Assembly (NCBI GenBank): GCA_008638375.1
Contig: CM018052.1
Location: forward strand, 16,619,950 to 16,683,949
Source: Nyssa sinensis
Lineage: Eukaryota; Streptophyta; Magnoliopsida; Cornales; Nyssaceae
Length of the DNA: 64,000 nucleotides
Reading direction: 5' to 3'
Each line of letters starts with the position of its first letter. The first letter of the stretch is position 1. Positions 17,073 to 60,200 of this stretch are shown here, piece by piece. The notes beneath the pieces are model-generated. The model worked only from the letters and a program-made list of their open reading frames with translations. It was not told the DNA's origin and did not search any database. The translations under genes and the position numbers were made by a program.

Positions 17073-17075
17073 ACG

Positions 17076-17087
17076 TGGTATCAGAGC
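17076..17087 (+). promoter_or_regulatory. Primer binding site, initiator Met tRNA
   Basis: TGGTATCAGAGC lies three bases after the LTR end and matches the 3' end of initiator Met tRNA. The match stops after 12 nt, where CATAGG replaces the usual CAGGT. Confidence 0.9.
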
Positions 17088-17281
17088 ATAGGTTCGAATA
17101 CCTAGAGACTGTGGGGTGTTGTTTAACACCATGAGACCCTAGAGAAGAGAATGAGACTTAGTATGAACTGTTAGCAGCATGTGATAGGATCTTATGTGCT
17201 ACGTGATTATGTGTCCTAATGCATGCCTTATTGTGATTACGTGAAGAAGTGATACTAAAATTTTCTCTTGGACTTGTAGAT

Positions 17282-22219: not shown

Positions 22220-22270
22220 TGTATTTTCTTTTGTTCTATGTTATTTTAAATTTCGGGACGAAATTTTTGT

Positions 22271-22283
22271 AAGGAGGGAAGGA
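22271..22283 (+). promoter_or_regulatory. Polypurine tract of the Tekay element
   Basis: AAGGAGGGAAGGA directly precedes the 3' LTR, the expected primer for plus-strand synthesis. Confidence 0.85.
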
Positions 22284-25137: not shown

Positions 25138-25142
25138 ATTCT

Positions 25143-35589: not shown

Positions 35590-36813
35590 GGGTCTTGGTT
35601 GAACTCATCATTTACGGGATTGTGAGGAGGACAACTGGATTCAACATCTGATTGGGTATCTTGGTCTTCACCCATCTGTGATACATGAATCATTAACTGC
35701 CTGGCTAATTCTTTAAGTTATTCTTTGGTCTGTCCTTGGATCAAGGTTTGGTCAATACTAGAGGATGACCGAGTCCTGTGAGCAATGGGCTGAGGCTGAG
35801 GAACTGCTGGGGGGAATTCTTCATTGATGAAAGAGATGAACCTTTCATAATTAAGTCTATCCCACCATTTACTGAGAATTCTCTGATTACTTTATTTTGA
35901 TTGATTGCATAATTTCACTTAGTAATCCATGAAATCTTATATTTATTGGCCATTAAGAGGATTATGGGAAACTGGGCTGTGTGCTGGTCAGTTTTATATA
36001 CTGAAGCAAAGTATTGCATTGCCATCTTAAGAGGGGTGGAAGTATTTCTGGAACAAGTCCAAATTTATTCCACCATTCACTGAACCATGTGGGAATCTGG
36101 CCTTTTAACTTTTGATCAAACATGAGAAACCATGAATGATTATTGAACTCATTCTGCATATAGAGGGCCCTGGTAAATGCTTGACTGTAATCATAATATG
36201 AGTACTGGATGGAAGAATTGGGAATAGATTGGAGCTGAGAGAGGTGAGATCCCCAGGCTTTTTCAGAAATGATATTTACGATGATGACTTTCTGGTACAA
36301 AATTTGACTAGGATCTTGTTTACTAGGGATATCTTCAAATCTAGCTGACCCAAAATGGAGAAGGATGGCTTTGTACCATTTAACTGATTTAGATGGATGG
36401 TTGGGAACAAAATGCCATCCAGGAGGAAAATAACTAGTGGCTAGAGCCCATGGATCTTGGATGTTAATTTTGTGAGGCTCAATGAAAAAGATGTTGACCG
36501 CGTATGGTTTTTTGAAATATGGGGATGAAGGAGTTTTAACTAGAGGCTTAGCTGGGATGAACCTTTGTTCTTAGAAGGGGTCAAAGGGGTTTGTAATTTC
36601 ATAAGGACTAGGGGGTAACCTGACAAGGGTTGAACTGTAACTAGGCTGACTGGGTCTTGGTAGATTGTAATTGGGGCGAATAGGACTACCAAGGACAGGG
36701 AAGCAGCTGCCTTGGGAAGAGGTTGTTGGGGCTCGTAAAAAGCTGGGAGTAACTGGGATTATTTTTCCTACGGAAGGAGTTGACTGTGGTTGCTTGTCTT
36801 TCTTCCCGCTCAT
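35590..36813 (-). pseudogene. Pararetroviral ORF2, unknown function
   Basis: The ATG at 36813 opens a Pro/Ser-rich N-terminus (MSGKKDKQ). A TAA at 36571 interrupts it, consistent with CAA to TAA. The same frame stays open to about 35962 and has conserved-looking aromatic blocks (WGSHLS, SWFLMFDQ, PTWFSEWWNKFG) typical of the second ORF of florendovirus-like sequences found in many plant genomes. After 35962 the homology seems to continue in a shifted frame to about 35590. The start overlaps the end of the RT-RNase H ORF. The function of this protein family is not known. Confidence 0.6.
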
Positions 36814-38280
36814 TTTTGGGCTGCAAAAATTCACAAGTAAGAAAATCAAGGAGACTATTATCCTCCCCGGGTATGTACTGGATATCAAAATCAAAAACAG
36901 AAAGAATGGCTTGCCATCTTACAAAAATTTGTTTAGAAGCAATGTTTTTAACATCTTTTTCCAAAACATGTTTGGCACTTTTACAATCAATTTTAACTAA
37001 AAAGCATTGATTTAATAAATCACTTTGAAATTTACTGATGCATAAAACAAGGGATAAAACTTCTTTTTTAATAGTACTATAATTTAACTGGGTAGAATTC
37101 CAGATTCCGGAGTGATAACAGATGATCTGTTCTGGAGAATCAGGACTTAATTTTTGACTAAGAATGCCACCGTAACCAATATCAGAGGCATCTGTTTGAA
37201 CTATTTTGAAAGCAGAGGGAGAGGGAATACCAAGACAGGGAAGGGTCTTGATGTATTGCTTAACTTGCTGGATAACAGCTGTATAAGCAGGTGTCCATGG
37301 AGGTGGATTACTACGGAGACGATCAAATAAAAGTTTACACTGAGATCGTAGATTGGGATAAAAATCTGAAATATAATTAAGGGATCCTAGAAATCGTTGC
37401 AACTGGGTTTTATCAAGGATTTGATCTGGGAATTTATCAGCAAATTGGATTGACCGATGAATGGGTTTGATTTGACCATAAGAAATATCCAAACCTAGAA
37501 ATCTAACTGAAGTTTGAAATAACTTGAGTTTAGATGCTGAGAGGACTAAACCATTGCGTTTAATTACATTCAGAAAAGAATATAAGTGTTTCCGATGTTG
37601 ATCAGTGGAATCTGAGTAGATGAGGACATCATTTATGTAAACTATAATATGACTGTAGAAAGGATTGAAGATGTCATTCATGACATTTTGAAATTCAGTA
37701 GGAGCATGTTTATTACATTCCATTCGTATTGACCAAAAGGGGTTGTGAATGCGGTTTTATATCTATCTGATTCATGGATCTGGATTTGCCAAAATCCACT
37801 TTTCATATCGAATTTACTAAAAATAACTACTTTGTGTAACCAGTTAACTAAGTTTCTCTTGTTTGGAATAGGATACCTGATTCATTCTAAGACTTTGCTT
37901 AATGGTTTGTAATTAATAACTAAGCGAGGGACTCCTCGTTCAATTTCTGCATTTTTGTTAACATAAAAGGCAGAACAGGACCATGGTGACTTAGAAGGCC
38001 TAATGATTTGTTTCCTCAATAATCCTTTGATTTCTTCTTGGCATGTTTCCATAAGGGTTTGACTCATTTGTATGGGCCGTGCTTTGGTAGGAATATTGTT
38101 TTCACTAAAACCTTTAACATAGGGAAGATGAACAATGTGTTGTTTCCTATGCCAAAATGCAGTGGGTAACTCAAAACAGACTTCTTGTTTGAGTAGTGAC
38201 TCAATTGACTAATTCGTTGTTGAAGTATAAGGTTAAGTAACTGTTGTTCAACTCTTTTAAACTGAATTTCTTCCAAAAGA
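36780..38280 (-). pseudogene. Pararetroviral RT-RNase H, inactive
   Basis: The enzyme would copy pregenomic RNA to DNA. The N-terminal part is broken (short frames at 38276-38064 and 38067-37882, with RPSKSPW and a downstream FSKFDMKSG block). A shift near 37705 precedes the long frame 37723-36686. The catalytic box reads VYINDVLIYS, so the first Asp of the usual Y-x-D-D is Asn and the enzyme could not work. The connection (LGLDI, FLGSLNYISDF) and RNase H (QTDASDIGYGG, a KKE block, GEDN near the end) are clear. Its form, without integrase after it, supports Caulimoviridae. Confidence 0.8.
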
Positions 38281-38399
38281 AAGTCAACATGGGACTTTTT
38301 CTTAGAAAGAAGATTAACTAAGCGTCTAATAGAGAGATCTTATAATGAATTTATTTCTCTGGACTGAGGATTTTTTATGAAGTTAAATCTAACTGTTTG

Positions 38400-38840
38400 G
38401 CCTAGAGGTTTAGTGGTAATCCCTTCACTGTCGGTGCTGAAAGGGTATAATAAGCACATGAATGGGTTACCGAGGATAACTTTATCAAACATGTTTTTGA
38501 CTAACACAAAAGGAGTTTTGAAACATACTTTATCTTAGCACACATATGCATTGGATAATTTTTACTGGATTTGCATGGAACTGCCATTAGCAGATTTTAA
38601 CTTTTCTCTGGTTTTTTCAAAGTATTTAGTAGGGATAATGCCTTCTTGAATACAGTTAAGATCTGCGCCTGAGTCGATGAGAGCAATGGCTTCAATTTCA
38701 AACTCTTCGCAAACTATGATCTTGACTGGGCATCGCCATTTTTGGAAGTTAATTCTAGTGATTGCGGTTAAGAAACTAGTGTGATCATCTTGATTTTAGC
38801 TGGAAGTTAGTAACTCAGGGGAAGTAGTGATGTTATTGGT
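38400..38840 (-). pseudogene. Pararetroviral aspartic protease region
   Basis: The minus strand near 38690-38665 reads ALIDSGADL, with the D-S-G active site kept. About 60 codons later a VILGNPF block near 38490-38470 fits the second conserved protease segment (the usual form has I-L-G). Stops interrupt the stretch, for example near 38538. It lies between the coat-protein region and RT as expected. Confidence 0.6.
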
Positions 38841-39311
38841 TGGACTAAATTCATCACTTGGGGATGGTTGAACTGGAACAAGAGGGGGAGGAAATAGGTG
38901 ACTATCAACTTTGCTTTCTAAAGAATCATGGTCGATTCTGAGTGTATAAATTCACTGTTTTAATTTGGTGATCTCCTTTTTGGTTTGGTTCACCTTTTAT
39001 TGTAAATCTTGGATGGTAAGTGGTTTGGTGTTACTAGTAAATCTATCAAAGATTTTATTAAATTGAACATGCGGGCTAAAAGGGATAATTGGAGATGGTT
39101 TAAGAGTGTCTATGACTAATGTCGTTTTAAATTGATTTAAATATTGAGATTTAGTTATCGGGTCTTCTACATTATTAATTAATTCTAGTAGGAGTTCTTC
39201 TTGTTTATTTAAAACATTAACTGTTTTACAACAGCTGCGGGTGCAATTATCTGTGCATCCTATCTTAACTAGAGGGCTGTCTGACTGATAGTGAGAACTA
39301 TGGTCAGAAGA

Positions 39312-40235
39312 TTAGTCTAACTGTTCAATTTCGTTTTCACTGTCACTTGAACTATAAGAGGAGGAATTAGGGGGTTCACTATCTGTATTTCTGAGATTTA
39401 AAATTTTAAGTAACTCTTGTTTGTGATCCTGGTTTCCTTGAAGGGTATTAATCAATTGTTTAACTTTACAATCTGACTGGAAGTGGCCTGGTTTTTCACA
39501 TTTAAAGCATACATCAATAGATGTTGCCTTGCGAGAAGTGTGTTTATTAGTAGGGTTTTTCTTCCTACGATTGGTTTTGTAGTAATTACGTGTTTGTTTG
39601 TTACTAGACTCGCCTTGGTGATGGGTTTTTTTGTACTTATGGCTGCGGCGGTGACCTTGGTGGTGACTGCCATGGGTGCGATGATACTTGTGGTGGCTCT
39701 CTTGGTGATGTTGACGAGAGCGTCGTTTTGAGGGTGCTAATGGGGGTAGGCCATACTGGACACAAAAATTACCAAGCTCATATTTGGCTCTTTTCGTGTT
39801 CTTGGCGGCTTGATTACTAATTTTCATGTCTATACACATCCATATGCCTTCTTTGCGAACTATGCAAATGATGTCACCGTATGTAAGATTGGGGTAATCT
39901 ATGACTCCTGTGTCTTTACTAAGGATTTCTCTAATCTTATGGGCAAAAAGACTAGGAAGCCTATTAATGAACTTTTCTTTCCAGAACGAAGAATTACTAT
40001 CATCTCTAAGCATAACTCTAAAGCAGAAGACATCTGCATACCATTCAAAGTCACTAAGTGTAGGATATTTAAGGTTAGTTAACTGATCATGAATCCTAGC
40101 GGTTACATGACTGGGGGTTCCTATGAAATGTTTAGTAATGGTGTAAATGAGGGTGTTAACTGCATCTGGTACTCCTTGTCCTATTGTTTCGTCAAAGACT
40201 GGGTTACTATTAGGGTCTCTTTTAACTACATCCAC
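39312..40235 (-). pseudogene. Pararetroviral coat-protein region with zinc knuckle
   Basis: The open frame of about 307 codons contains the capsid-like core with the block FWKEKFINRLPSLFAHKIRE (about residues 83-102), a very basic His/Lys/Arg-rich segment (about 170-240), the CCHC knuckle CFKCEKPGHFQSDC (about 245-258) and an acidic Ser-rich end. These features in this order mark the caulimovirid coat protein, which packages the DNA genome. Homology extends upstream beyond the frame start, to about 40330, across a stop, so the frame start is not a true initiation site. The movement-protein region upstream is lost. Confidence 0.75.
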
Positions 40236-43525: not shown

Positions 43526-45057
43526 CTAATCAATATTAGAATTTCATATTAAAGCATTATTATTTTCTTGCTTTAAATAGTAACATGAAAAAATATTTAT
43601 ATTGATAAAATAAATATCATGTCAAGTTCAAGTAACATACTAATTGTAAAAGCATACAATTTTCAGTATACAAAAAACTAGAATTAACCAAGTACTATAT
43701 CTCATAAGTAAACTTGATATAATTATACATAAATTAAAATATGTACATTAACAAACTAGTAAATAAAATACAAAATCTGAAATTTTGTAACTTAAATTTA
43801 AAGTAATCAAATCAGAACTAATTCTGAAATTCTATAAATTAATACAGTATATAAACTGATAAAGATAAAGTTAGATATTGTTTCAAGATTGCTAGGAAAA
43901 ATTATATTTTATCAGAATACTGTACTTGAAAAAAAACTTACAGCACTTTAATAAATATTATATTATAAAAATTATATGAAATTATTTCAGAATCATATAA
44001 AATAGAAATTAAATTTTCAAAATACTGCAAATACAAGAAAAAAAATTAAATGGAAACAAACAAAAATTAGAACTTACAGTTTTTCACGAAAATACAAAAA
44101 GTAAAGCAATGGTGATTGACCAAGGCTAATGTCTTACACTATGTTCTTAAGACAATATCGCCTTCGCACTGGTACTTTCGAGTTTTTAGTGATGGTTATC
44201 TCCTAGGATACAATGGTCACGCACAATAGATGAAAGCACTCCAATCTTATGTGCACAGCGAACCAAAACTTGTCCTTGAACTTTTTTAATATGCAGACTC
44301 ACAGTATGCATGAACTTAATTCTAAAACTCATGAAATTTAATGAATGATGAGGAAGGCGAACTGGGTTTATATACTTGACTTGGTGGCTGTTCAAATAGA
44401 CACGAACCTAAAGGGTGCATATGTTCACGCGAACAGATATAATGCTTCAATTTGAATAGATGCATCCAATGGTGAACAGACGCACTAATCTGAATGGACA
44501 CAACTATTCTTTGAATTCAAAAGGACGCACCTGTTCATGGTGACTATTCAATCAAAATTAAAAAACGTAACATTTTAAAAATATAATTTAAATAAATAAA
44601 TTTATTTAAATAAATTTTCTCCCAAAAAATTATATATACAACGGGTCAAGGTCCAAGCCCAACCCAAGGTAATTGTATATATACTCTTTAAAAACTTTGT
44701 TCCCAGCCAATGTGAGACACAAGCTTTTCACAAGTTTCAAGCTTTGTTACCATTTTCAAGTGGTGATATTTAGAGTCAATTTCTCATTCGCCCCTTAATA
44801 GTTTTGAGCAACCTTATATACATGTTCTTAATATCTTCATCGATAAGAACATATTTTCATGTGGACCAATCTAAAATAATGTATGGGACTCATTTTAATT
44901 TTGGCTTAAAGATAGCCAAAAATTATTACTCAATAATCTTTTTTTCCAACGGTTTTTGTAGGAGTTTAGTTTAGTTTCCTAATTTCTAAATCATATGCCA
45001 TATTACAGTTATATAACAAACTATTCCTAAGTTTTATAACAAACTTATATGTGTTTG
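43526..45057. other. AT-rich spacer, ends in TSD gtttg
   Basis: No gene was recognised. Around 44400-44530 there are repeated GAACAGAYGCA / GAATGGACAC-like phrases of a kind seen in some copia LTRs, and 44636-44780 contains a GTCAAGGTCCAAGCCC phrase, but no LTR edge was found. The last five bases (45053-45057, gtttg) are the left target duplication of the Tat element. Confidence 0.45.
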
Positions 45058-45655
45058 TGATGCTGCACTTTTCGGCTCGCAATAAGTGAGGGCTCTACGA
45101 CCTGTAGAACACTCAGAAAGATGATCAGAGGTCCACCGGATTGGCTCCGGCGGTAGCCGCTCCGATGCTTAAGTAAGTAAAAAGGAATTGAAAGACTGTA
45201 TTAAAAGCCAAAGAATGAGCATAAAAATAAAGCGTACCTTTAGGGTTTAATTTATAGACCGTGGCCTTCCTAAGTTGATTAGGATTTGATGCCATGAATA
45301 TAGGGATTTGATCATCGGAGATTGCAGTTACCTTGTGGAGTATCGCATAGAGATAACCATAAATGGTAGTTCCCTTGTTGAAGACTGTTTCCTTGCTTGA
45401 AGACTGTTTCTTTATTCCCTGCTCGGCATCCGCTAAAGCGGTGACGATGTCTGGAGTGTTGATCTAGACCCTATGATAAGTTCTGAGGCCCTTGTCCGGA
45501 TATGTATGCTCTGAAGGTATAAGTTTGGTCACTTTCGACCTTTTGTGCTGATCTTTTTGGTTATTGGCTGAGTGGAAACCATGTCGGCAGTGCATGAGTT
45601 GGATTATGGTCATACGTGTCAAATGCTGATTGGTCTGCTCTTTTATGGGATATCA
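45058..45655 (-). repeat. 3' LTR of the Tat element, about 598 bp
   Basis: In element orientation it starts TGATATCCC (45655) beside the polypurine tract and ends GTGCAGCATCA (45058) at the duplication gtttg. U3 is about 433 bp. From the TATA box at 45256-45248 to A at 45222 is 34 nt, so transcription and the R region should start at 45222. R-U5 is therefore 45222-45058, 165 bp. The exact U3 edge could shift by a few bases because TAAC lies between tract and TGATATC. Confidence 0.75.
45248..45256 (-). promoter_or_regulatory. TATA box in U3 of the Tat element
   Basis: The minus strand reads TCTATAAATTAAACCC. Its first T lies 34 nt upstream of the base where the homology to the flipped right end begins, the normal TATA-to-start distance. 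Confidence 0.65.
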
Positions 45656-45659
45656 GTTA

Positions 45660-45671
45660 CTCCCCCCAAGT
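45660..45671 (-). promoter_or_regulatory. Polypurine tract of the Tat element
   Basis: The minus strand reads ACTTGGGGGGAG just before the 3' LTR, a usual plus-strand primer in plant gypsy elements. It confirms that the left LTR is the 3' LTR of a minus-strand element. Confidence 0.75.
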
Positions 45672-45900
45672 CCTAGTTTGATGCTAGCAAGCAACTAGGG
45701 CTAAGCCTTTTTCGAAGAGTCATGTGTCCTGCCTGTTCGCCTTTCAAGGCAACTATTGGGGCGCCATTTATTGGGCAGCCGGAGATTAGGTCTTTTCAAG
45801 GTCATTATTTGTACTGGCCGATAGTTGGGTTTCCCAAAATCATCATTGTTCCGAACTGTCATGGCGTTTGGGCTTGGTGGGTCCCTTCTGATACTGTGTT

Positions 45901-45908
45901 TATAAATA
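45901..45908 (+). promoter_or_regulatory. TATA box of the antisense gene
   Basis: TATAAATA stands 171 nt before the ATG at 46079. No ATG occurs between the expected start site (about 45930) and 46079, so that ATG is the first in the predicted mRNA. Confidence 0.6.
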
Positions 45909-46078
45909 CGGGGTAAGATTTTGAAATAACCTTTTCCCTGTCATTTTCACTGTGCTAGAAGACTTCATCTGCCATTGTTGGTTTGTGCGACTTTGCAGAA
46001 TACCGACTTCCTGAGTTAGACCAGGTTCGACTGATTTTTCCTCTTCTCTTGCTTCTTTTCTTCTTAAGTCTAGGAATA

Positions 46079-47997
46079 ATGTCTGCCCCTTTTGAGTCCC
46101 CAATTGTAAGCGAGGGAGTAGGGAATCCTTCTGAGATGGCTGTACCGTCTCCTGTGGAAGACGTAGGTAACCCTGCTCCCGAAGATATTGGGGAGAGGCT
46201 TGTTGAACCTCCCCCTAGTCCTGGGATTAGGATAGTCGATGCCTTTGAAGAGCCCCGAGACAGGGCTGGGGAGACCTCTGGTAGGTCTTCTCATAGAGAA
46301 GAGGGTGAAAGTGCTGTCGGTCAGAGCCTTTTGGACGAATGGAGGGTAAAATACAGTTTTCCCCCCGACGTGACTTGCAGAGCTCCAGGCCCCATGGATC
46401 GTCCCCAAAATGTTGGAGCCGGGGAGATTTGTGTTTATCTTGCCTGGTTTGAAATGGGCTTGAGACTCCCATTGCCGGATTTAGTCAAGCAATTCTTTTG
46501 TTGGTTCAAGCTCTGCCTTGCCGACCTAAATCTCAATAGCTGGCGGCAGCTTCTAGGGTTCATAGTATTGGGACACCAAAACAAGGTGGATGTGTCCCTG
46601 GACTTGATCCATAGCAATATGGATTTGAAGTTCAAACAGGCAGAAGGCCTTTTCTATATGTCCTTCGAGGAGCGGTTCCAACCCCTGTCCTCCTTTCCTA
46701 CTTCCAACAAAACGTGGAAAAAGTGGTACTTCTTCGTCGGAGGAGGATAGGAGCATGAAGACTTCCAGAAAGGAGAAGCCTCGCCATTCCCTCGTGCTAC
46801 GGGTCATAAGGGTGAGGCTTATTCCCTTAGGTTTGCTTTAGCTTTGTTTATGCCTTTAGACCTGATAAACTGATATATCACTCCTTACTTCTTGTGCAGT
46901 CAAGAGTGCTTGGAAGAGGCCCGATTTTACTAAAGCACTGCGAGATCAATACCGAGTGCTGCTTTCGACTTCTAACCGGGCTCATTCTGTTATTGTGACT
47001 CCGGAGAACTTGATGGCTGCCCGTTTCGCAGAGCTTAAGAAGAGGCTGACGACGAAGTGGGCTGTGCCGGAGGCCCCGGTGGTGGGGGAGTCTTCCTCCC
47101 GAGCTGAGCCTGATGCCCCCCTTGAAGTAAAAAGGAGGAGGTTGATTTCTGGCTCTCCCAAGCCAGCCCCTGCCGAGGCTGAGAAGGAGGCCGAACCTGC
47201 CGTCCCTGTTTCGGCTGCTCCTCCTGCCTCTTCTGGTCTGAGCAGGAGGACTAGGAAGGGGAAAGCACCTGCTGCGCTGTTCGAGCCGTTTGCTGAGCCG
47301 GACTGTCAAATTTCCAAGAAGGCATTTGATCAAATATGGGCTCAGGGCCAGCACCGATATAGAGGGGATGACCCCTCCAAGCTGATGACTGAGATGATGA
47401 ATCTCCAGATGAAGGTAACTTCTGAAGCCTTTCTTGACTTTCCTGTTTGTTCATTTGTTCAATCTAAATTGTCTGTCTTGCTTTGTGCAGAGCATGCATA
47501 GTTTGGCTGCTCTGATGGTGACCCCTATGGGCCTTGAGGAGGCTGAGAAGTTGAGGGCTGAAGTGGAAGAGATGAGGATGGAGCTTGGGACAGCCCGATC
47601 CAAGATTCAGACCACTGAGGAGGATCTGAAGGAAGCTACCACCAACCTTACCGTGGCAGAGTCTGAGAGGGACATATATGCTCAGAAGGTTGAGGGGCTT
47701 CAGACGGAGTTGGTTAATCTCCGAAGTTCCTTCGATCAGAAGGTTCAGGAGGCAGTTGATCATGCCAGGGCTGAGACTGAGATGGTATTGAAAGATGAAG
47801 TTGAACAGATGGGTGATGACCTGATCCGGTTCGGTTTCGAAAGCTTCCGAACTAGATTCCAGATTCAGTTCCCAGGTTTTGACGTTTCATCAATCGTTCC
47901 CCTTGAACCTACCTCATCTCGTCCTGATTCGGACAAGACGGCTGGGGCTACTACCCTTAACTTGGAAGAGGACGCAGGCCTTTCTGGGAAGTCTTGA
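46079..47997 (+). pseudogene. Antisense additional gene of Tat element, three exons
   Basis: The protein resembles the plant 'putative gypsy type transposon' family: an acidic Pro-rich start, a core with YSFPPDVTCRAP and GEICVYLAWFEMGLRLPLP (about residues 85-130), a middle part rich in Pro/Ala with KRRR, and a C-terminal coiled coil (about 425-510). Exons are 46079-46811, 46900-47414 and 47491-47997. Introns 46812-46899 and 47415-47490 begin GTGAGG and GTAACT, end TGCAG, and splice in phase (1 and 0). Total about 584 residues. One in-frame TAG at 46748 replaces a likely Trp (TGG to TAG). Its own TATA box and AATAAA make it a complete transcription unit opposite to pol. Its function is unknown. 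Confidence 0.8.
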
Positions 47998-48058
47998 GGC
48001 TTTATGGGTTTTTATTTTTGCTACTTCTTTTTGATGTAATGAATGTATTCTTCCAATC

Positions 48059-48064
48059 AATAAA
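48059..48064 (+). terminator. AATAAA signal of the antisense gene
   Basis: AATAAA lies 62 bp after the stop codon, preceded by a T-rich stretch with TTTTGATGTAATGAATGTA, the U-rich and TGTA-type upstream signal usual in plants. Confidence 0.6.
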
Positions 48065-48069
48065 ATTGA

Positions 48070-49760
48070 CTTTCCTTCAGATTCTGCTTGTGTTCTTTCC
48101 TCCCGTGCAATTTTGTCGTAAGTGTGGCTGCTTTGAGCCTTTTGTATGTTAGATCAACTGTCCAGCAATCAGTAGTCGCTTTCCGAACTTCGATACTTGT
48201 CACTGAATAGTGAATGTAGATTAACTTCAACTGTTTTATTATAATAAGACAAGAAAGTAAATATAACCAGATAGGCAGAGCCTGGTAAAGTGGGAGTAGG
48301 CTTCTGTAGGGCTCTGAGATAGACTGCTCTGAATCAAGAGCTTGTGAAGATAACCAGGCAGCTTGTGCTTGTAGTTATGATGCTCGGCATGCTGTGTTCG
48401 AGTACTCAGGATCGGGATATATCCGAGCTGTTTGGCCTTTGTCATATGACTGGCCTGTCATTAAATAGTTAAGACTGGAAGATCTGAATCTTGAATAGAG
48501 GGTCTGTACACTTAGACTTTGTTCCCCTCTCTGTCAATTCGGGAGCTTCAGTGCTGGACTGTGGTCTCTGTTTAGAGAGTTCTGTACCCTGTCTCTTGGT
48601 ATATCGAAGAGGCACATTTAATGCACCGTTTATTTATTCGATCGTCGTTTAGGATTTCGAGGCCACTCTCTTTTTCATCGTTGCGACGGCTCAGTTGGGT
48701 GGCTTTTGGACTTCAAGGGTCTATATATATGGTTGTGCTCAACCTTTTTGTTCCCAAATCGTTCCCTTGTGAGAGAGACTTTATATGCTGCCGGAGTTTT
48801 GCCACTCACCCGGAGATGATGGATGATTCTCTGTCTGAGTTAAGAATGATTGAACTGTAGTTGAGAGTTAACCTTCTCCCTTTTTCAGTCTCCAAGGAAG
48901 GATTAAATGAAGCACAAGTCTTCTTGTTTCCTCTAGCCTTCGGGCGAGATTCCTTCGGTTGGTGGTGTTCCCTCCCTGATTCAACCAAGGCTTGGAGCGC
49001 CGGTGATGGAGACGCAAGTGGGGTGCCGCCTCTTCTTCATGTTTCGTCAGTGACCCCTGCTTCAATCGGCTGGGGTGTAACAACTGACGTGAGGAAGACG
49101 AATGGCGATCCCCTGAGACCCAGAGCCCTCATCCTCTGTTGGTCGTGAGACCAGTGATAGTGATAATGAAATGGCCTGGGTGCTTCTTGATGCGGATTGG
49201 GGTTCAGGGTTCATTCCTTTCAAACGGAGCCGGTGACGGCGGTAATGGAAGTTTTGGATCCTGTGCCCTTCTATCATCCCATAAAGAAAAGCCGTGATGT
49301 TGCCAAGTGTAGCTTCTGTAGTAACTTCTGTAATAGTTTCTGTAACAGCTTCTGTAATAGCCTCTGTTTTATTTCCATTCTTTGTACTGATGTAAATCTT
49401 CCGATTTATTAATAAGATTGAGCTCCTTTTTCTCAAATCTGATGTTTTCTTTTGTTTGAGTGTGCCCTTTTGAGTTAGACTACCCTTTTGTGCACTTCTG
49501 ATCAATAACTCCTCCGTATGTCTTGAGAATAGATCAAAGAACTTAGCAAAATGCTTGAATCAAAATACTTTACGTCTGATCGGTACCATAGTACTTGTTG
49601 CTTGTTTGACAGATAAGCCAAATAATATAAGTATCAGATCTGAGGTGTTCCGATCTAGGAAACTTTAGTTTGTGGATACCTGGAACTTCTGTCTTTGGAT
49701 GGACTGGATCATAGAATCTGCTAGTTGAGGATGGATCAGGCTCGGAAGGCCTGTGCATTA
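48070..49760 (+). other. Non-coding part of Tat element, possible second antisense unit
   Basis: No clear protein gene was recognised between the antisense gene and the 63-bp array. A TATATATAT box at 48722-48730 followed by short ORFs (for example MMDDSLSELRMIEL near 48818), a CTTTTTCAG acceptor-like site at 48889 and a TTATTAATAAGATTG end near 49405 could form a second plus-strand transcription unit of about 0.7 kb. The evidence is weak. Confidence 0.3.
49311..49367 (+). repeat. 12-bp tandem repeat CTTCTGTAATAG
   Basis: Four to five units of CTTCTGTAATAG and close variants. In one frame the array reads as alternating NSFC-like residues. Confidence 0.8.
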
Positions 49761-49762
49761 GG

Positions 49763-50056
49763 GTGGTCCAGGCTCTAAAGGCCTGTGTATTTAGAAAAAT
49801 GGACCAAGTATTTAAGACCTGCATATTATGGACCAGGTTCTGAAGGCCCGTGCATTAATAGATGGACCAAATGCGAAGACTTGTACATTTATGGACCAGG
49901 CTCTGAAGGCCTGTGCATTAGTAGATGGACCAAGTACTGAGACTTGTACATTTATGGACCAGGCTCTAGAGGCCTGTGCATTAATAGATGGACCAAGTAC
50001 TGAGACTTGTACATTTATGGACCAGGCTCTGGAGGCCTGTGCATTAATAGATGAAC
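49763..50056 (+). repeat. 63-bp minisatellite downstream of integrase
   Basis: Exact 63-bp spacing of ATGGACCAGG (49828, 49891, 49954, 50017) with an older unit to the left. One frame is open through the array and reads a 21-residue unit with MDQALEACALIDGP. It ends just past the stop of the integrase on the other strand. Confidence 0.9.
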
Positions 50057-50082
50057 ATTCTATGGAAGTAAAAGAAACATAT

Positions 50083-51400
50083 CTATTGATAATACTTCCG
50101 TAAGTGCTCTACGTTCCATGGCCTAGGAACATGCTTCCCAGTCATGTCTTCTAGCCAGTAGGTGGTAGGCCGAACAACCTTTGTTACTTTGTAGGGGCCT
50201 TCCCAGTTTGGTGACAATTTTCCCATGGTGGGATCCTTGGTGTTTTGAAAGACTCTTCTTAAGACGAAGTCTCCGACTTGAAAGCTGACTGTCTTGAGTC
50301 CTATCTTGGATTTGTTGACCATTCTCTGTTGATAGGCTTCCATCCTGATGCTGGCCTGATCCCTTCTCTCTTCGAGCAAATCCAAGTTTTTCATCAGCTG
50401 CTGATCATTGGATTCTTGCTCAAAGGCCTCAGTCCTCAGGGTTGGCATACCGATCTCAACCGGAATTACTGCTTCTGTTCCATAGGATAGAGAGAAGGGA
50501 GTTTCAGAGGTGGGAGTTCTTCTGGTTGTTCTGTAGGCCCAAAGAACTCCAGGGAGTTCTTCTGCCCACTTCCCTTTGGCCTGTTCCAACCTTTTCTTTA
50601 ACCCGTCAAGGATTGTTCGGTTGGTGACCTCAGCTTGCCCATTTGCTTGTGGATGGCCTGGAGAGGCAAAGTGTTGCCTAATGTTGAGATTTTCACAGAA
50701 TGCTTTAAAGCCTTTACCAGTGAATTGTGTTCCATTGTCGGAGATAATCACGCGTGGTATGCGAAACCTGCATACGATGTTCTTCCAGGTGAAGCTCTCA
50801 ACTTCTTTTTCTGTGATATGTGTTAGAGGTTCGGCTTCGGCCCATTTAGAGAAGTAGTCGATGGCCACCAAGAGATACTTTCTGTTTGGAGGTGCCCTTG
50901 GTAAGGGGCCCACAATGTCCATCCCCCATTGAGCAAAGGGTCAAGGACTAAGAATCGGGATAAGCTCATGGCGAGGCTAATGTTGGTACGGGGCAAATCT
51001 CTGGCATTTTTCGCACTTCCGAACATATTCCTTAGCCTGTTTCAACATGCCGGGCCAGTAATAGCCCTGCGATAGAGCCCGGTGGGCTATAGTTTTGCCC
51101 CCATTATGATTCCCGCAAATTCCTTCATGTATTTCAGCCAGGACATATTGTGACTCTTCTAGAGCTAAGCATTTTAACAGAGGTTGAGAATACGACCTTC
51201 TGTAAAGCTTGTTGTTTAGGATCAGGTACCGAGCCGCTCTGATTCGGATTCTCCTGGCTTTGTTTTTGTCCTCTGGGAGAAGCCCGGATCTTAGATACTG
51301 GAGGATTGGAGTCATCCAGTTCTGAGGCTGTTCATCAATTTGGGCAATTTGGGCTTCCTCAATGCTGGACCTTGGCTGAAAGGAGATTTTAATCGTGGAG
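50083..51400 (-). pseudogene. Integrase of the Tat element
   Basis: Integrase joins the cDNA ends to the target. The HHCC finger ([13 protein letters not shown]...C-KCQ) lies at about 51140-51005. The core has MDIVGPLP with the first Asp, VIISDNGTQF with the second, and HPQANGQAEVTNR with the Glu. The C-terminus (VGDFVLRRVF, GKLSPNWEGPYKV) ends with a stop at about 50083. In-frame stops at about 50974-50979 (TAG, from CAG) and 50947 (TGA, consistent with TGG) lie between finger and core. The frame is otherwise continuous with RT. Confidence 0.85.
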
Positions 51401-51459
51401 TTTGCTTCAGACTTGAGGCGGGAGGCCATGTTAGCCAGAGCATCTGCTCTGCAATTTTG

Positions 51460-51942
51460 GCTTCTCTCAATTTTCTGGATAGTAAATGTCTGGAAGGAAT
51501 GCTTCAAATGGTTCACCAGTTCGGAGTACCGGAGCATCCTGTCATCTTTAATGGCAAATTCTCCCAAGACCTGGCTCACTACCAGTTGGGAATCAGAGAA
51601 GACGTCGAGGTTTTGAGCCTCGCATCTCATGGCAAGCTTCATGCCTAAGATTAGGGCTTCATATTCGGCTTCGTTGTTAGAAGCTTTGAATCCCAGGCTG
51701 ACTGCTTTTTCTGATGTGAGCCCATCAGGGGACTATAGTACCAGGCCTACCCCTGCGCCTTGATCGGTTGACGACCCATCAATGTATAGCAGCCAGGTTC
51801 CCGAAGTCTTGGTAAGTTGCGCTTTGTTCTGAAGTGCCGGGGTGAACTCTGCCACGAAATCAGCTAGGGCCTGCCCTTTGATGGAGCTTCGGGGTACATA
51901 TGATATGTCGAACTCCCCTAGCTCCACAGACCACTTCACCAA
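51460..51942 (-). pseudogene. Second (archaeal-type) RNase H of the Tat element
   Basis: WLLYIDGSSTDQGAGVGLVL, then [16 protein letters not shown] and [12 protein letters not shown] give the D-E-D acidic residues of RNase H. A second RNase H after a degenerate gypsy-type one is a mark of the Tat lineage. One in-frame TAG after GVGLVL (about 51733) fits CAG to TAG. Confidence 0.75.
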
Positions 51943-53370
51943 TCTTCCCGATACCTCAGGTTTCCTCAGTATTGACTTCAGAGGATAGGCAGTCGGGATC
52001 TCGATTGGATGGGCTTGGCAATAAGGTCAAAGCTTCCGAGCTGATATGACCAAGGCATAGGCTAGTTTCTCTACTTCTGGGTATCTTTTCTCCGTGTCAA
52101 GTAGTGCCCTACTGACGTAGAAAATAGGCCTCTGTACTCTTCTGTCCTGTCTGATTAATGCGGAGCTGACCGCATTTTCGAAAACTGCGAGATATAGGAG
52201 TAGCTTTTCTCCTTGTACTGGTTTTGACAGGAGTTCTAGAAAGGCTAAATACTCTTTTAGTCCTTGAAAGGATTCTTCGCATTGTTCCGTCCACTGCAAA
52301 GCTTTGCTGCCCTTCAGAGCTTTGAAGAAAGGTAGGCAGCGGTCAGTGGATTTGGAAATAAATCTGCTCAGTGCCGCAATTCTGCTATTCAATGCCTGAA
52401 TTTCCTTCTTGGTTTTCGATGACTTCAGTCCAATCAAAGCTTGGATCTGAGTGGGATATGCTTCGATACCCCTCTGAGAGACAATGTATCCCAAGAATTT
52501 TCCCTTCGTAACTCCGAAGGTGCATTTCGAGGGGTTGAGCTTCATCCTATGCTGTCTGAGGATATCGAAGGTCTGGGCTAAGTGCTGGAGGTGGCTGCCT
52601 TTCTGAAGACTCTTTACCAGCATGTCGTCGATGTATACCTCCATGGTGCTGTCGAGCAGTGAGCTGAACATCTTGTTCACCAACCGCTGATAAGTGGCCC
52701 CAGCATTCTTCAAACCGAAAGGCATCACTCTGTAGTAGTAGAGCCATCTTTCGGTTATGAAGGCAGTCTTCTCTTGATCTGGAGGGTACATTTGGATCTG
52801 GTTGTATCCAGAGTAGGCATCCATGAAGCTCATAAGCTCATGCCCCGCAGTGGCGTCAACCAGTTGGTCTATTCTTGGCAGTGGAAAGCTGTCCTTGGGG
52901 TACGCCTTGTTGAGGTCTGTATAATCAACGCAGACTCTCCATTTGCCATTTTTCTTCTTGATGAGCACGGTGTTGGCTAGCCACTCGGGATAGAATACTT
53001 CCCGTATCATCCTGGCATCCAGCAGCCTTTGGACTTCTTCATTTATAACCCGATGCCGTTCAGGAGCGATCGGCCTTCTCTTCTGTCTGACTGGCGGGTG
53101 ATCCGGATCCACCATCAGCTTGTGAGTTATAAGATTGGGATCTATTCTTTCCATGTCTTTGGTCTCCTATGCAAAGATAGAGAGGTTATCTTTCAAGAAC
53201 CAGACTATCTTTTCCTGCTCAGTGTGTGTGAGGTCTGGGCCGATGTACAAATAACGCTCCTCAGCTTCTGAACTGACCTGTATCTTAATGGGCTCGCCAA
53301 CAGGTTTGGCTTGGCTGTCACATCCCCTTGGGCTCAAGGGTTCTTCAATGTTGGATGGGCAATCCTCCAC
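51943..53370 (-). pseudogene. Reverse transcriptase and first RNase H of the Tat element
   Basis: RT copies the element RNA. The reading shows KKKNGKWRVCVDYTDLNKA, MDAYSGYNQI, the MPFGLKNAGATYQ block and the intact active site VYIDDMLVKS, followed by the connection and a gypsy-type RNase H that has lost its acidic start (LLLYLAVFENAVSSAL). Stops are TAG at about 53165 (usual place of Trp, TGG to TAG) and TGA near 52030 (usual Arg, CGA to TGA). Upstream the frame reaches 53370, where a shift separates it from the protease. Confidence 0.85.
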
Positions 53371-53880
53371 TTCAGAAGAGTGAGTGAGAACCGAATCTGC
53401 ACAGTCCCGGGTGTACTGTAATTGCTATTTAGGGGCCTTCTCCTTAAGGGCAATAGCATGGCATTCCCGGCGGTTGGTTGACACCCTCTGACATAATGAA
53501 TGCTCTGGTTGTGGACGTACTTCAGACACTGATGGAGGGTTGAAGTGATTGCCCCTATCTGATGCAACCAGGGTCTCCCGATTATGACGTTGTAGGGAGA
53601 TCTCATGGTTAACACCATGTACTCCGAGATGGTGGTCTTCTGCCCTTCACCCTCTCCTACAGTGGTAGGAAGGTTGACTCTCCCCAACGGGGTGCTGAGA
53701 TTGCCATCAAAAACTGCCATCACGGCAGTGGTGGGCTTGACGTTGTCATGGTCTATCCCCATCTGTTTGAGCGGCTCATAGAATAATATGTTGACGGAGC
53801 TGCCAGTATCGACCAGGACTCTCCTGGTCTCGAAGTTGGAGATTCTGAGGGTAATAACAAGGGCATCACTGTGAGGGCAG
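53371..53880 (-). pseudogene. Protease of the Tat element
   Basis: The minus strand near 53825-53790 reads RRVLVDTGSSVNILFY, with the D-T-G active site intact. PYNVIIGRPWLH at about 53600-53565 is the second conserved block. The region is in a different frame from RT. Confidence 0.8.
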
Positions 53881-53900
53881 TGTACCCCTACTAGATCTTG

Positions 53901-55788
53901 CTAGGTGAATTGGATCTCTGGTGCTGGCTTGAGCCTCTTTTCGACGTTGGAGATCTGTAATACGTTCGGGGCGGCTCTGGCTTCCCGAGCATATCTCTTT
54001 CTTGCCCTATTGGACATTCCTGTGACAGGGGAGTCAGCATGGAGGACGTAGATGACGTGGTTGTTCTGCCTCTGAGGCTCGTTTCGTCCCTCCCTCTGCT
54101 CCTGCCTCTGTTCGGGCCTCTGGTCCGGCCGTTGCTGAGGCTTGTCTTCTTGGGGGTTCTGCCTTCCATCCGGCTTGACGAACTCCCGAAGACGCCCCTT
54201 CTTTATGAGCTGCTCTATCTCATATCGAAGGGTCCTGCATGTGTTAGTTGTATGTCCATGATCTTTTTGGAAATTACAGTACTTACTTTGGTCCCGCAGG
54301 CTGGGATCTCCTTGGATTGGTTCCGGCCACCTCAGGTTCTCCCGATCTCGGATCTGCCGGAGTACCTGGTTTGGTGTAGTGTTCAAAGGAGTGAAGTTGG
54401 TGAACTCCCTTGGTCCGGAGTTGTACACAGCTCTGGGTGCTGTTCTATTCTCTGGGCTCCTGGCCCTCTTTTTGTTGGAGTCTCTTCTGTGATCCTCCTT
54501 CTTGTGGTCCTCCCGCTTCGGATTGTCCATCTGGATCTGATCTCCACCCTTCTGGGACGTGCGGTTGGCTTCTTCCAGGTTGATGTATTTCCTGGCTCCG
54601 ATCCATTAACGCCGCCATATCGGCTAGAGGGCTTTTTGTCAAGGAGTCTCTGAACCCACCTTTGGGCAAGCCCAGCAGTTAGGGCTGCTACAAGGAACTT
54701 TGGGCTGCAGTCAGTGATCTCAGTGAGTTCGGTATTGAAGCGCGCAATGTAGGCGCAGAGGGATTCCTCCCTGGTCTGCTTGACGTTCAGCAGGAATTCT
54801 GGCCCCCTTCTGAGCCTCCTGCTGGTCATAAACCTGTCCAAGAACTGTCTACCGAGCTCGTAAAAGCTGGTAACTAAGTTCGGAGGGAGGTGGTGGAACC
54901 ACTTCAGAGCAGTTCCCTTCAAGCTGGTGATGAACGTTCGGCACATGAAAGCATCAGAGGCTCTGTGAAGGGCCATCGTATGCTGGTAATGAGAGAGATG
55001 ATCTCCTAGATCTCCAGATCCATCGTATAGGGTGAACTTGGGCACCATGAACTTTCTGGGCCTCTCTTCTAACATGATGGCATGAGTGAATGGGGTGGCT
55101 AGTCTTCCGAGCAGCCTGGCCAGTTCGTCTTGCTCTGGAGGGTTCTGAGGTCCTCTCAAGGTAATTGTCCGGTCCATCGACTCGGCAATTTTCTCTACCC
55201 TCCGCGGGTCTCTGAGTCTGACATCTTGTGAACCCTGCCTAACAGCCTCGGCTTCAGAGTAGTAGGGTTGATTACGCCCTTCGAACGGAAGAGGATTCTG
55301 AACCGGAGGGATTGGTGCTGCATGATGAGGCTCCTGTGGTGCCGGGTGTGCTCTCAAGGCCCTTGGCGTTGGGGCTCGAGTAGTGCTCCGGTAATGGACG
55401 TCGGGAACGAAGGCGGATGTTCCCCAGCCAGGACTGTTGATGGCTGCGGATCTCGGCCAGCGCGAGCAACGCCTGATGGGTGCCCAGGCTGGTTAGTTGG
55501 AGACTGCGCATGAAGTTCTTCATTCTCCGTGGCAACAGGAGGTTGCGTTCCCGCAACGAAGTTGACCGGCGGGCTAGGAGAACCCGCCGCTTGGTTCTGC
55601 GTGAGTGTTGCCAGCGTTCTAGTGATGGCAAGCAACTGCTCCTGCACTAGTTCATTGTGTCGTTTTATTGCTTCGATCTCTTGTCGCATAGGATTGGCCG
55701 CTGGCCCCTTTGTGCGAGGAGCAGGTGGCTGACGTTGAGCGTTTTGCGAACTCTGAGTATTCTGTCGCTGTCGGAGATTTGGTGCCAT
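53901..55788 (-). pseudogene. gag: gag of the Tat element, frameshifted
   Basis: The ATG at 55788 lies 59 bp after the primer site and opens a Gln/Pro-rich N-terminus (MAPNLRQRQN) with a short coiled coil (IEAIKRHNELVQEQL). A shift near 55350 leads to the frame 55357-54620 with the retrotrans_gag domain (KFTLYDGSGDLGDHLSHY, TFITSLKGTALKWFHHLPP). A second shift near 54610 leads to 54530-53901, with the CNFQKDHGHTTNTC knuckle-like motif. The frame changes could be indels from decay. Confidence 0.85.
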
Positions 55789-55846
55789 GGTTTTCCGGTG
55801 AGGAAAGAGATGAATTTATGAATAGAGCACTTGGAGATTAGTCGTT

Positions 55847-55862
55847 CCCACAGACGGCGCCA
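55847..55862 (-). promoter_or_regulatory. Primer binding site of the Tat element
   Basis: The minus strand reads TGGCGCCGTCTGTGGG three bases after the flipped R-U5. The first bases, TGGCGCCGT, agree with the 3' end of a plant Asp tRNA. This motif is common at this place in plant gypsy elements. Confidence 0.75.
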
Positions 55863-55865
55863 AAC

Positions 55866-56032
55866 TGATGCTCATTCTTTGGCTTTCAATACAGTCTTTC
55901 AATTCCTTTTTACTTACTTAAGCATCGGAGCGGCTACCGCCGGAGCCAATCCGGTGGACCTCTGATCGTCTTTCTGAGTGTTCTACAGGTCGCAGAGCCC
56001 TCACTTATTGCGAGTCGAAAAGTGCAGCATCA
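55866..56032 (+). repeat. Flipped R-U5 replacing the 5' LTR
   Basis: Bases 55868-56032 match the R-U5 of the left LTR (45222-45058) over 165 bp with four transitions and no gap, but in opposite orientation. The U5 end GCATCA faces outward to the duplication gtttg. The R start ATGCTCATTC faces inward and is joined to TG (CA on the element strand) and the primer site. No U3 is present. Confidence 0.9.
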
Positions 56033-56037
56033 GTTTG

Positions 56038-57063
56038 TATAGGAATATACTATCGGGGGAATATTATACATATAAATATATATTTATAATTATGACTTTA
56101 AGCAATTATAATTTTCAGATCATATATACAATAAAATAGTTATAAATAAGAAAAAAACAAACTAGAAGATAAGATAAATAATAATTGAAGAATAATAAAT
56201 TAAACGAATATAATCAAACAACAGTAAGTAACACGAGCTGCATACCATTGGGGCTATTTTGGGTTGAGGAGGAATCTCAAAAGCATGAAGTCTTTTATAC
56301 ACATTAAGCTAAAGAGCAATCCCAAAAGCATTTTGGTACATATTCCTACTGGGATTCTAATTAATATTGAATTGTTACCATAGTTCTGTGTGAAACGTCA
56401 CAGTAGAAATTGTATTTGAGCAGAACTTTAATTTGTAATTTTTTTTCTGATTAACTATTAAAATTACCTTTTAAGTGGTCATTAACTATCCAAAATAAAG
56501 TTAACACTCTTATAATTAATATTTAATAAGTTAATAATTTTTTTACGGAACCAACTTGATTTTATGGTGTATAATTAATAATTCTATTACTTAATAATTA
56601 ATATTTTTTATATAAAAATCCTTTATAATATTAATTATTAGAGAGATAAAATAATTATACATTTATTTATATATATTTGATTTACAATATATTTTTGTCA
56701 TTATATTTTTAAATTCTATTTAAATTAGAGTTAAATGTATTGTAAGTGAGAAAAATTATGGCATGAGTAAACGTAGAAACATAAACTTTTTAGTTTAAAA
56801 ATATATTATCAATTTTTATACATAAGTTGAACATTATATATATATTTTTTTATGAAATATCGAAATGTCATTAAAAAGTTGAATATGATGTCTCTTTTTG
56901 TCTCTAAATTCATATACATCTATGAAATATTTTTTATTAATAAAAATTTAAGAACATTTATAATTAATAATTCTAATCATTAATAATTTTTTTTATCTCT
57001 CAAGTCTATTAATTATAAGAGAGTTGATTATAGTATTGTACAAACGACATGTCTTAACTAAAG
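56038..57063. other. AT-rich spacer
   Basis: Very AT-rich DNA with many TTAATAATTAAT and TATAATTAAT phrases. No gene or known element edge was recognised. Confidence 0.5.
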
Positions 57064-57274
57064 ACTCCAACATCAAAACTTTAACTAAATAAACTAAATA
57101 AATAATAAAAAGGATTAATTACACTTACCTTTCCTGTGGTTTCTGACAATTGCAGATACCTCCTGCAATTGCAGACTCCAACATCAAAACTTTAACTAAA
57201 TAAACTAAATAAATAATAAAAAGGATTAATTACACTTACCTTTCCTGTAGTTTCTGACAATTGCAGATACCTCC
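57064..57274 (+). repeat. 110-bp tandem duplication at a MULE end
   Basis: GACTCCAACATC starts at 57064 and again at 57174. The unit ends with GGATTAATTACACTTACCT and a polypyrimidine phrase that resemble the terminal inverted repeats of plant Mutator-like elements. The second unit is interrupted by the solo LTR after CCTCC and continues at 60493. Confidence 0.65.
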
Positions 57275-60200
57275 TGTAATATCCCGATCCGGGATATAGC
57301 ATGTGCACCGGGCTGGACCGGGCTATAAATGTAATTCCGAATTATAAGCCGTGAAATGATATAAATAAAAGTGGATGCGTAATGGACTGTATTGTTTAAT
57401 TACGATGCATAGGTACGAGAGGCAAACAATCACGGGTGTCCGGGTGCCGTTGCACCGGAAGCTGAGTTTACTGAAAAACGTGCAAGTGAATGTCGACGCA
57501 TAAATTTTTATTGTAAATCTAAATGATTATGAATATCATATATATATATATATACGGTTGGATGATATATATATATATATATTATAATACAATATTATTT
57601 ATATATGTATATATGTGTATACGGTTGCATATATATATATATATATATATAATAGGTATGTAAAGTGGGCCTTGCATGATGAGGAGGTGGCAAAGCCACC
57701 GAGTGGGAAATCAGCAAAAGAGGGTTAGGGTGCAACGTGTGAGGAGGAGAGAGAGAGAGAAAGCTATGTGTGTGAGGTGTCTTGTGTGCATGTGTGTGCT
57801 GCCACCGTGGCTACAAGTGGCAAGGGCCACCTACTGGGGGGTCGGTTAAGGGAAGAAAGGAAGAGAGAGTTAGACAGAGATTGAAGATGTGAGAGAAACT
57901 GAATCGCAAGGAAGAAAGAAGTGGGAATAGAGAGAGAAAGAAAGAAAATGAATTTTGGAAAAAGGGTTGAGAAAACCTACAAACAGGTATATTCCTGATT
58001 TAAATTATGTTCATTTATATTTTTAATAGGTGTCGTTACTGTTAGAGTTGATGACAATCCGAAATAGAAAAGAAAAACAAGAAAAACCAAAACTGGGTTA
58101 CGGCTGGCAATGGTGATTAAAAATAGCTGAAACCAAACCAAGATTTGAACCATAATATGAATAGGAAACGTCTCTAGGGACCCAACGCACTTCGAATCAG
58201 CTTAAATGGTCAAGAAATGGCCATTCTGTGGCCAGTTATTCCCTCACCGGTGCAACGCCGGAAACTAGGGAATGGGTGTGTGAAACCGGTGATGTTGGAG
58301 GTTAAAATCAGTCCTAACATGTTCCTTATAATCCTAGAATTCATTGGGAAGAAAAACAGTGAATTTTGGACGTAAAACCATGAAGATCCGTGAGGAATTG
58401 CATTGCTCCGGCGACTGTGGCCGGAATTCCACCGGAGAAGATGACCGGATTGTCGAGGGAGCTATCGGGTCATAACGGGACCGGGTTTGGGTCGGACCGG
58501 GTCGGGACCCGACCGAAAATGATTAGGGGCAGTGATGCTATGTCGTTTTGAATGTAAAATTAAAATCAATTGGGCTTGTTTGGTCACAGGTATAAGGGAT
58601 TGAAATTGGGTTGGAGTTGTTCAAACCGTGGATAAGGTGAGAGAATTGGATATGTTAATCCGGTTCTCTAAATTTAACTGAACCGTTTGGTTCAGTGAAG
58701 AACCGAATCGGTTAGGGTTTCTAGTCAGTGAACCCAATGGTTCAGACCGCAACTCTGGCTATTTACATTTTGACCCCAAATGTTTTGGAAAATTCCACTG
58801 AGGCCCAACAGAAAAATGTTAATTTTACAAACATGCCCCTGACTCAAAAGTGGGTCAAACGAGGTCCAAATAGGGCAAATGAATAGTCAATTTTTATTAT
58901 CTCGGATGCTCTGAGTCCAATGGTGAGGTCCGTTTCACGAGACGGAGTCCCGAAAAGTTACGACTTGTAAAAATGACCAAAATACCCCTGCTTCATAGGT
59001 GAGTCAAATGGACTCCGATTGAATTAAATAATTAGTGAATTTTTATTATTCTGAACCTTCCGAATCTATTGGTAATGTCAAAATTATGAAAAGAGGTTCC
59101 GAGAACAACGGACATATAAAAGTCTAAATAAGTATTAGAAATACTGATCATAGCAAGGCATAGAATTTGGTGAATAGAAATTATTCTGAAACGTATTTAC
59201 TGATATATAGGGAACTCAACGGGAAAAGAAAAACCTACAGAAGACTGATTTAGCAATGCATTAGAGGTAAGTAGATACCCTTTCTCTTCCATGTGGTGTT
59301 ATCAAGCCAAGTTCATTCTTTTACTGCCAAACTTGTACTCCTGAGCGTATCTGATGTTATTGTCTCCACAATATGATATTGTTCTATCTGGTGGACATTG
59401 ATTTATTGTTGTACCATTGTTATCATGTTGAACCGTGCTTTGAATTGCCTATTGTTATGTTTCCATTGAATTGATGATATTCCATTTTTATATACTCCTA
59501 TGGAATCATTTATGATCATGAAATGTTTATGTATACTGGATTTGTGCTCAGTCACAATATCCATCCGATGCTTTTAAATACACTGAAGACCTTCGGGTCG
59601 AGTCCGTGAACGGACATATGGCCATACACTGGAATGCACTGAAGGGGGTAAACCGGGCCCCCAAAGACCGAGGGCATATCAAGCCCTGACACAGAACAAA
59701 AGCATCTCCTATACGATTGTTCAACTAAAATAGTTGAATTACATTGTTCTTATGATTATCTTGTATTGCGAGATATTCCTTTATTGATTTATTGTGATCA
59801 ATTATAATGGCAGTACTTTCTTGTTATTGTATTATCGTTGAGAGTTCCAGGACATTGTTATGCTATTCCTACTGATTACACATTGTGATCCCACTGTTCA
59901 TTTGCCACTGTTCACATGTTAAGAGTTTCATGTTGATGTGATGTCCCTTACTCCTAATTGTACATTGTGTTCTATTGTTTATTGGCCTTTATGGCAACTG
60001 TGCCCATTGGCTATCATAGCATCTTATTTCTTATGATTGGCTATCATATTCTTGTTCTTGGATTCATATTCTTTTATGATCCTCGATACCAGTGTCGGAG
60101 ATCTGTATTTACTTGCTGGGCTCTTGTAGCTCATTCCACCCTCCTCACCCCCATTTCAGGTACTGATGCCGCGAGACCCCGGTAGGAGTCTAAAGACATA

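Follow-up and report, generated by a model that had tools for sequence, protein, structure and literature searches.

We describe an LTR retrotransposon in which the 5' LTR is replaced by an inverted R-U5 segment. This inverted strong-stop end is confirmed in the window, by which we mean the whole 64,000-nucleotide stretch of DNA analysed (C10:16619950-16683949), and comparable joints recur elsewhere in the one host genome that was searched for them (1.0 Gb, 211 contigs). From sequence comparison, we consider it probable that reverse transcription took a side route to make the DNA that integrated as the window copy, a route that is rare but repeated in this Retand family.

The 2 arms of the window element form an inverted match of 165 nt with no gaps and 4 differences, all of them transitions (window-against-window blastn, E 1.2e-75); they are the sole inverted pair of at least 25 nt reported within 44500-56600. 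The ends are thus inverted and without a direct LTR pair, and they are flanked by a perfect 5-bp target-site duplication (GTTTG on the plus strand, CAAAC in the sense of the element). The arm match ends at ATGCTC, with the TATAAAT of the 3' LTR's U3 lying 34 nt above it, and the inverted arm joins CA, GTT, and the primer site via AGCAT/ATGCT. A preliminary description, made from the letters of this DNA, had claimed the gapless arms with their transitions, the duplication, the 34-nt spacing, and the AGCAT junction; the inverted-pair search, blastn, and the window sequence bear out all of these. On its domain content, the element is a Retand-type Ty3/gypsy retrotransposon lying on the minus strand. 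The antisense open reading frame (ORF) carries PF04195/TRP28 (29.3 bits, cut-off 26.2; E 1e-6). An antisense domain of this sort in the stretch from pol to the 3' LTR has been described as typical of Retand and confined to flowering plants (PMC11963269), which points to a plant host. The domain order is RVT_1, RT_RNaseH, RVT_3, H2C2, and rve; an extra RNase H is followed by integrase, and an additional RNase H is described as a mark of Tat elements (PMC10508981). Coordinates are collected in Table 1.

Table 1. Features of the inverted-end element, in window coordinates.
Feature	Position	Strand	Basis
5-bp target-site duplication, GTTTG on plus	45053..45057	.	sequence and comparison of both ends
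Normal arm (R-U5 of 3' LTR), with the U5 end GCAGCATCA outermost	45058..45222	-	inverted match, blastn
U3 of 3' LTR, beginning TGATATCCCATAAAA	45223..45655	-	sequence, LTR starts of normal copies
TATA box TATAAAT, 34 nt above putative R start	45250..45256	-	sequence
Polypurine tract CTTGGGGGGAG adjoining 3' LTR	45660..45670	-	sequence, normal copies
Antisense ORF containing the Retand marker PF04195 (TRP28)	45983..46750	+	domain search
Tandem repeats, spacing about 63, between pol and antisense ORFs	49731..50056	.	repeat search
pol: integrase core part	50083..50922	-	ORF and domain search
Second RNase H (RVT_3) and integrase zinc domain	50977..51642	-	ORF and domain search
Reverse transcriptase and RNase H	52027..53154	-	ORF and domain search
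gag	54383..55357	-	ORF and domain search
Primer-binding site TGGCGCCGTCTGTGGGAA; 1 difference from the complement of the L070 tRNA-Lys(UUU) gene with CCA	55845..55862	-	
Junction: AGCAT, common to strong-stop 3' end and U5 end, then CA, GTT	55863..55872	-	
Inverted R-U5 replacing the 5' LTR; in the coding direction, its sequence is that of minus-strand strong-stop DNA	55868..56032	-	
5-bp target-site duplication, GTTTG on plus	56033..56037	.	sequence and comparison of both ends

The window holds other repeats as well. A second Ty3/gypsy element at 14228-25138 encodes gag, a zinc knuckle, protease, reverse transcriptase, RNase H, and integrase; its direct repeats of about 2.85 kb are 98.5% identical, and parts of these repeats match elsewhere in the window at roughly 66-80%. 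At 36686-40235, minus-strand ORFs carry reverse transcriptase/RNase H and a Caulimovirus coat domain (just under cut-off) with a zinc knuckle, possibly the remnant of an integrated pararetrovirus. Just past the inverted-end element, at 57062-57280, is a direct repeat of 108 nt with 98% identity.

Normal copies of the family establish which end of the window element is the unusual one. The normal U5/primer-site joint GTGCAGCATCAGTTTGGCG occurs 2846 times (1469 + 1377; reversed control 0), and the first 30 of the listed joints served as a sample. The exact motif ATGCTCATTC lies 159-166 nt from the LTR end in 16 of these 30 copies; TATAAAT stands 34-35 nt above it in 11 of the 16 and was not found at that distance in the remaining 5. 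A motif search located the 5' LTR start, TGATAT.CCAT, in 12 of the 30, with LTRs of 547-674 nt and differing flanks. Because LTRs of normal relatives begin in this way, we take the window's 3' LTR to span 45058-45655, and from the LTR and R starts of the normal copies it follows that this LTR is normal and that the 5' end is the odd one. The LTR start near 45655 and the R start at the match limit, both proposed beforehand, agree with the normal copies, the latter also with the arm starts at ATGCTC. We infer the R start itself from its spacing to the TATA box. The possibility that the 167-bp form is the true LTR, considered after a locus with a diverged arm (L006) was seen, is ruled out by the 2846 normal joints and by the LTR starts. 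Three normal copies (L014, L016, and L031) have ATC rather than GTC in the primer site, the letters of the L070 tRNA-Lys(UUU) gene; these sites look as if they had been fixed from a tRNA copy.

The preliminary description had proposed a genome search for the inverted junction, and it shows that the window is not alone. The inverted joint GAATGAGCATCAGTTTGGCG has 16 exact matches (9 + 7), the window's included. A gap-tolerant search, allowing 0-30 nt from the R start to the primer site, gave 15 matches, 14 with AGCATCAGTT and 1 with AGCACCAGTT, a point change (AGCACCA) at locus L062. A shortened 18-mer pattern that also fits sister subfamilies gave 21 matches, 5 of them new; reversed controls for the exact and 18-mer patterns gave 0. 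Counting the point variant, there are 22 inverted-joint loci, which are spread over several subfamilies and include bodies of other families. Normal joints outnumber inverted ones by more than 100 to 1, so that the 167-bp form is not the family norm and the left end of the window element is the normal one, as first described; the inverted share, below 1% of the 2846, is rough, because the search patterns differ in length.

The arm is complete to the U5 end in 19 of the 22 loci, ending in TGATGC (TAATGC in L044). The others are L006, with a diverged arm and no clean outer end, and L065 and L069, in which a normal LTR end precedes the inverted arm and the upstream U5 end is unlike that of the arm. 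Flanks of the 19 complete loci, compared over 600 nt for 15 and 82-155 nt for 4, are mutually unrelated, except for one repeat common to L039 and L066. On these counts, the inverted form is a recurrent product rather than a single freak, rare but repeated in this Retand family.

Target-site duplications accompany these ends wherever both could be compared. Among the 19 complete loci, 12 have a located 3' end, and in 12/12 the 5 bp after the 3' U5 end are the same as the 5 bp before the 5' arm. When 5' and 3' duplications were crossed between loci, 2 of 132 pairs matched, both between the 2 TATAT loci (L001 and L044), where the duplications sit in TA repeats. The 3' end of L040 has AA for the terminal CA. 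The search for 3' ends covered 15 of the 19 loci (all but L062, L066, L067, and L068); in L004, L041, and L043 none was found within the part of the expected range searched. The agreement points to integrase joining 2 U5 ends. It also bears on the quality of the assembly: an artefact is exceedingly improbable, because this joint turns up at further sites that have their own duplications, the complete copies occupying 19 distinct sites and all 12 located ends being matched.

The inner limit of the arm is equally constant, starting at ATGCTC in 15/15 aligned inverted loci; in L040 the limit is ambiguous by 2 nt, because the 2 U3 bases before R are also TG. Arms were compared with the R-U5 of their own 3' LTR in 10 copies. 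Identity is 100% in L005, L007, L045, and L046, 99.4% in L002, 98.8% in L003, L042, and L044, 97.6% in the window, and 96.9% in L040. LTRs recombine often, and one might imagine that inversion, gene conversion, or ectopic recombination after integration swapped a normal 5' LTR for inverted R-U5. Nothing specific speaks for such a rearrangement, and we regard it as very improbable: the 5-bp duplications that flank the inverted U5 end in 12/12 largely contradict it, the breakpoint is identical in the loci found, at the R start and the primer site, and 4 copies have arms of full identity.

A different possibility is that one inverted ancestor gave rise to a transposing lineage with terminal inverted repeats, in keeping with the existence of several inverted copies, some within one subfamily. 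A tree was built from the first 900 nt after the primer site, using the 27 of 45 rows that share more than 600 nt with the window's leader (10 inverted and 17 normal copies). Placing the inverted copies on it requires 9 label changes, at least 6 of them forced by starred branches (shuffled mean 8.3); 2 normal rows, L029 and L032, have long branches and uncertain places. The 27-row tree contains no well-supported clade of inverted copies alone. Inverted copies are instead interspersed with normal ones, which argues that they arise repeatedly, and they extend to several subfamilies and to bodies of other families. In addition, the RNA should not carry the inverted piece, since transcription is expected to start downstream of it. 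A transposing inverted lineage is therefore highly unlikely. Duplications, fixed breakpoint, scattered places on the tree, and distinct sites are the grounds on which we reject this lineage, post-integration inversion, and assembly error.

The explanation that we favor begins with the 3' end of minus-strand strong-stop DNA, ...GAGCAT-3'. Rather than pairing with R at the 3' end of the RNA, its last 5 bases could anneal to the ATGCT that a minus strand, either its own or that of another molecule, has close to the 5' end (tRNA-AAC TG ATGCT GC...). Once primed there, the strong-stop DNA would be extended by CA and GTT and then along the tRNA primer, acquiring a 3' primer-site sequence like that of plus strong-stop DNA. 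The extended molecule would then take over the role of plus strong-stop DNA in the second strand transfer, and the finished DNA would have U5 at both ends, which integrase would trim and join with a 5-bp duplication. We infer this order of strand events, and reverse transcriptase and integrase as the agents, from the final products. The arm corresponds to R-U5, given the putative R start, and its end is complementary to the proposed priming site. When the strong-stop sequence is folded as DNA, 3'-AGCAT is paired with 5'-ATGCT in the structure of lowest energy; the fold is no more stable than those of shuffled sequences (z 0.75; 151/200 shuffles fold at least as well). The interpretation given to the window element in the preliminary description is supported.

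One part of that interpretation, that strong-stop DNA primed on its own U5 complement, does not account for locus L001. A search for the 3' end of L001 by arm similarity found none, because its 3' LTR is foreign to the arm: this LTR (TGATGAGCC...GCAGCATCA, followed by TATAT) belongs to another family and has no match to the arm. Since the arm is unlike the copy's own 3' LTR, the strong-stop DNA came from a different RNA; L001 shows, on this comparison, that the partner can be another RNA's product. L004 and L041 have the leader of L001 and for that reason are probably of its kind, with a foreign arm. A foreign arm is also consistent with another order of events, in which the growing minus strand continues beyond the primer site into the beginning of U5, switches at ATGCT onto free minus strong-stop DNA, and copies it to the 5' end, without a self-primed intermediate. 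For simple copies like that in the window, this order would end in an identical sequence. We nonetheless hold it to be unlikely: the strong-stop 3' terminus is used in all loci seen, which fits priming at least as well as switching, and locus L045 argues more directly against it.

In L045, the inverted arm is followed by GTT and by 40 nt matching CCA and the complement of the putative tRNA-Lys(UUU) gene L070; the 3 CCA positions, which the gene does not encode, were added by script for the comparison. The stretch matches at 36/37 encoded positions, leaves after position 37, and then enters U3 at about nt 63, the joint having a 3-nt overlap (GTT). An exact 29-mer of the tRNA copy has genome matches only in L045 and in the L070 gene. 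ARAGORN gave no result of use on L045, and Rfam reported nothing at gathering score on the tRNA stretch, the best tRNA-clan match being a tmRNA T arm (E 5e-4). A review treating HIV-1 with tRNA-Lys3 describes plus strong-stop DNA as halting mainly at m1A58 and ms2t6A37 as the last minor plus-strand stop, with a product that is not used in transfer (PMC13191261); L045, departing at position 37, joined U3 instead. A strand extended along the tRNA would readily give an arm joined to a tRNA copy out to position 37, whereas the switch of the minus strand would need an extra switch, and L045 therefore favors self-priming.

Several copies are composites. L005 exits the primer site after GTTTGGCGC and enters the LTR without about its first 5 bases. 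The claim that such an element is promoterless from birth applies to the window copy. In L005 and L045, by contrast, the greater part of a U3 is retained behind the inverted piece, and in L065 and L069 this piece is preceded by a normal LTR end. L069 has AAC ahead of TGATGC, as in an untrimmed minus-strand start, and L065 is similar and slightly longer; since GGCGCC in the primer site is self-complementary, these joints may be the remains of a palindrome. An added A or T marks the primer-site edge in 5/15 inverted copies, besides the longer tRNA copy of L045; we do not use such additions as evidence because normal copies show them too (7/30, by eye). About 195 nt past its joint, L043 has a short leader, then partial sense U5, a second primer site, and another leader, which by its arrangement is a further switch within the same copy. 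L039 is a copy of less than 1 kb with an inverted arm and the duplication GTTGT; its AT-rich interior does not resemble the leader of the window element, and its 3' end is partial R-U5 preceded by GAGCATCAGTT.

A broader proposal, to which we give an even chance, is that the minus strand of one packaged RNA can receive minus strong-stop DNA made on another packaged RNA where plus strong-stop DNA would normally act. This would constitute a second, low-rate route in LTR retroelements, with integration joining 2 U5 ends, a rate set by the chance match between R start and U5 end, and products that are fossils of heterodimer packaging. These naturally occurring copies suggest that self-primed strong-stop DNA, a source of abortive products in HIV-1, can be completed and integrated, and their sequences are evidence that integration with an ordinary 5-bp duplication needs no more than 2 U5 ends. 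L001 and its like record RNAs of 2 families meeting during reverse transcription, and L045 how far a tRNA primer was copied. Annotation tools that seek direct LTR pairs would be expected to miss such elements, so the junction rule offers a means to search for them in other families.

In the open-licence PubMed Central literature searched, we found no description of an integrated element of this form. DIRS-type elements are likewise retroelements with inverted terminal repeats; they employ a tyrosine recombinase and a different replication scheme, whereas the elements described here have integrase and 5-bp duplications. In HIV-1, self-priming of minus strong-stop DNA is described as TAR-dependent and as giving abortive products (Guo 1997, cited in PMC4668388). 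The likeness is that the minus strong-stop 3' end primes on strong-stop sequence, skipping the first strand transfer (PMC4668388); HIV-1, as described there, needs TAR and gives abortive or heterogeneous products, whereas we propose pairing at the U5 end, gain of the primer site, and integrated elements. HIV-1 proviruses with asymmetric LTRs also have unequal ends, ascribed to template switching between 2 packaged RNAs, but those reported are 3' LTR deletions and not an inverted strong-stop end (PMC9278108). The closest parallel in the normal pathway is plus strong-stop DNA in the second transfer, where a DNA 3' end derived from tRNA copying, normally to m1A58, is used for transfer and a stop at position 37 is known (PMC13191261). 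In the route proposed here, minus strong-stop DNA would stand in for plus strong-stop DNA, which would leave the 5' end as inverted R-U5 without U3.
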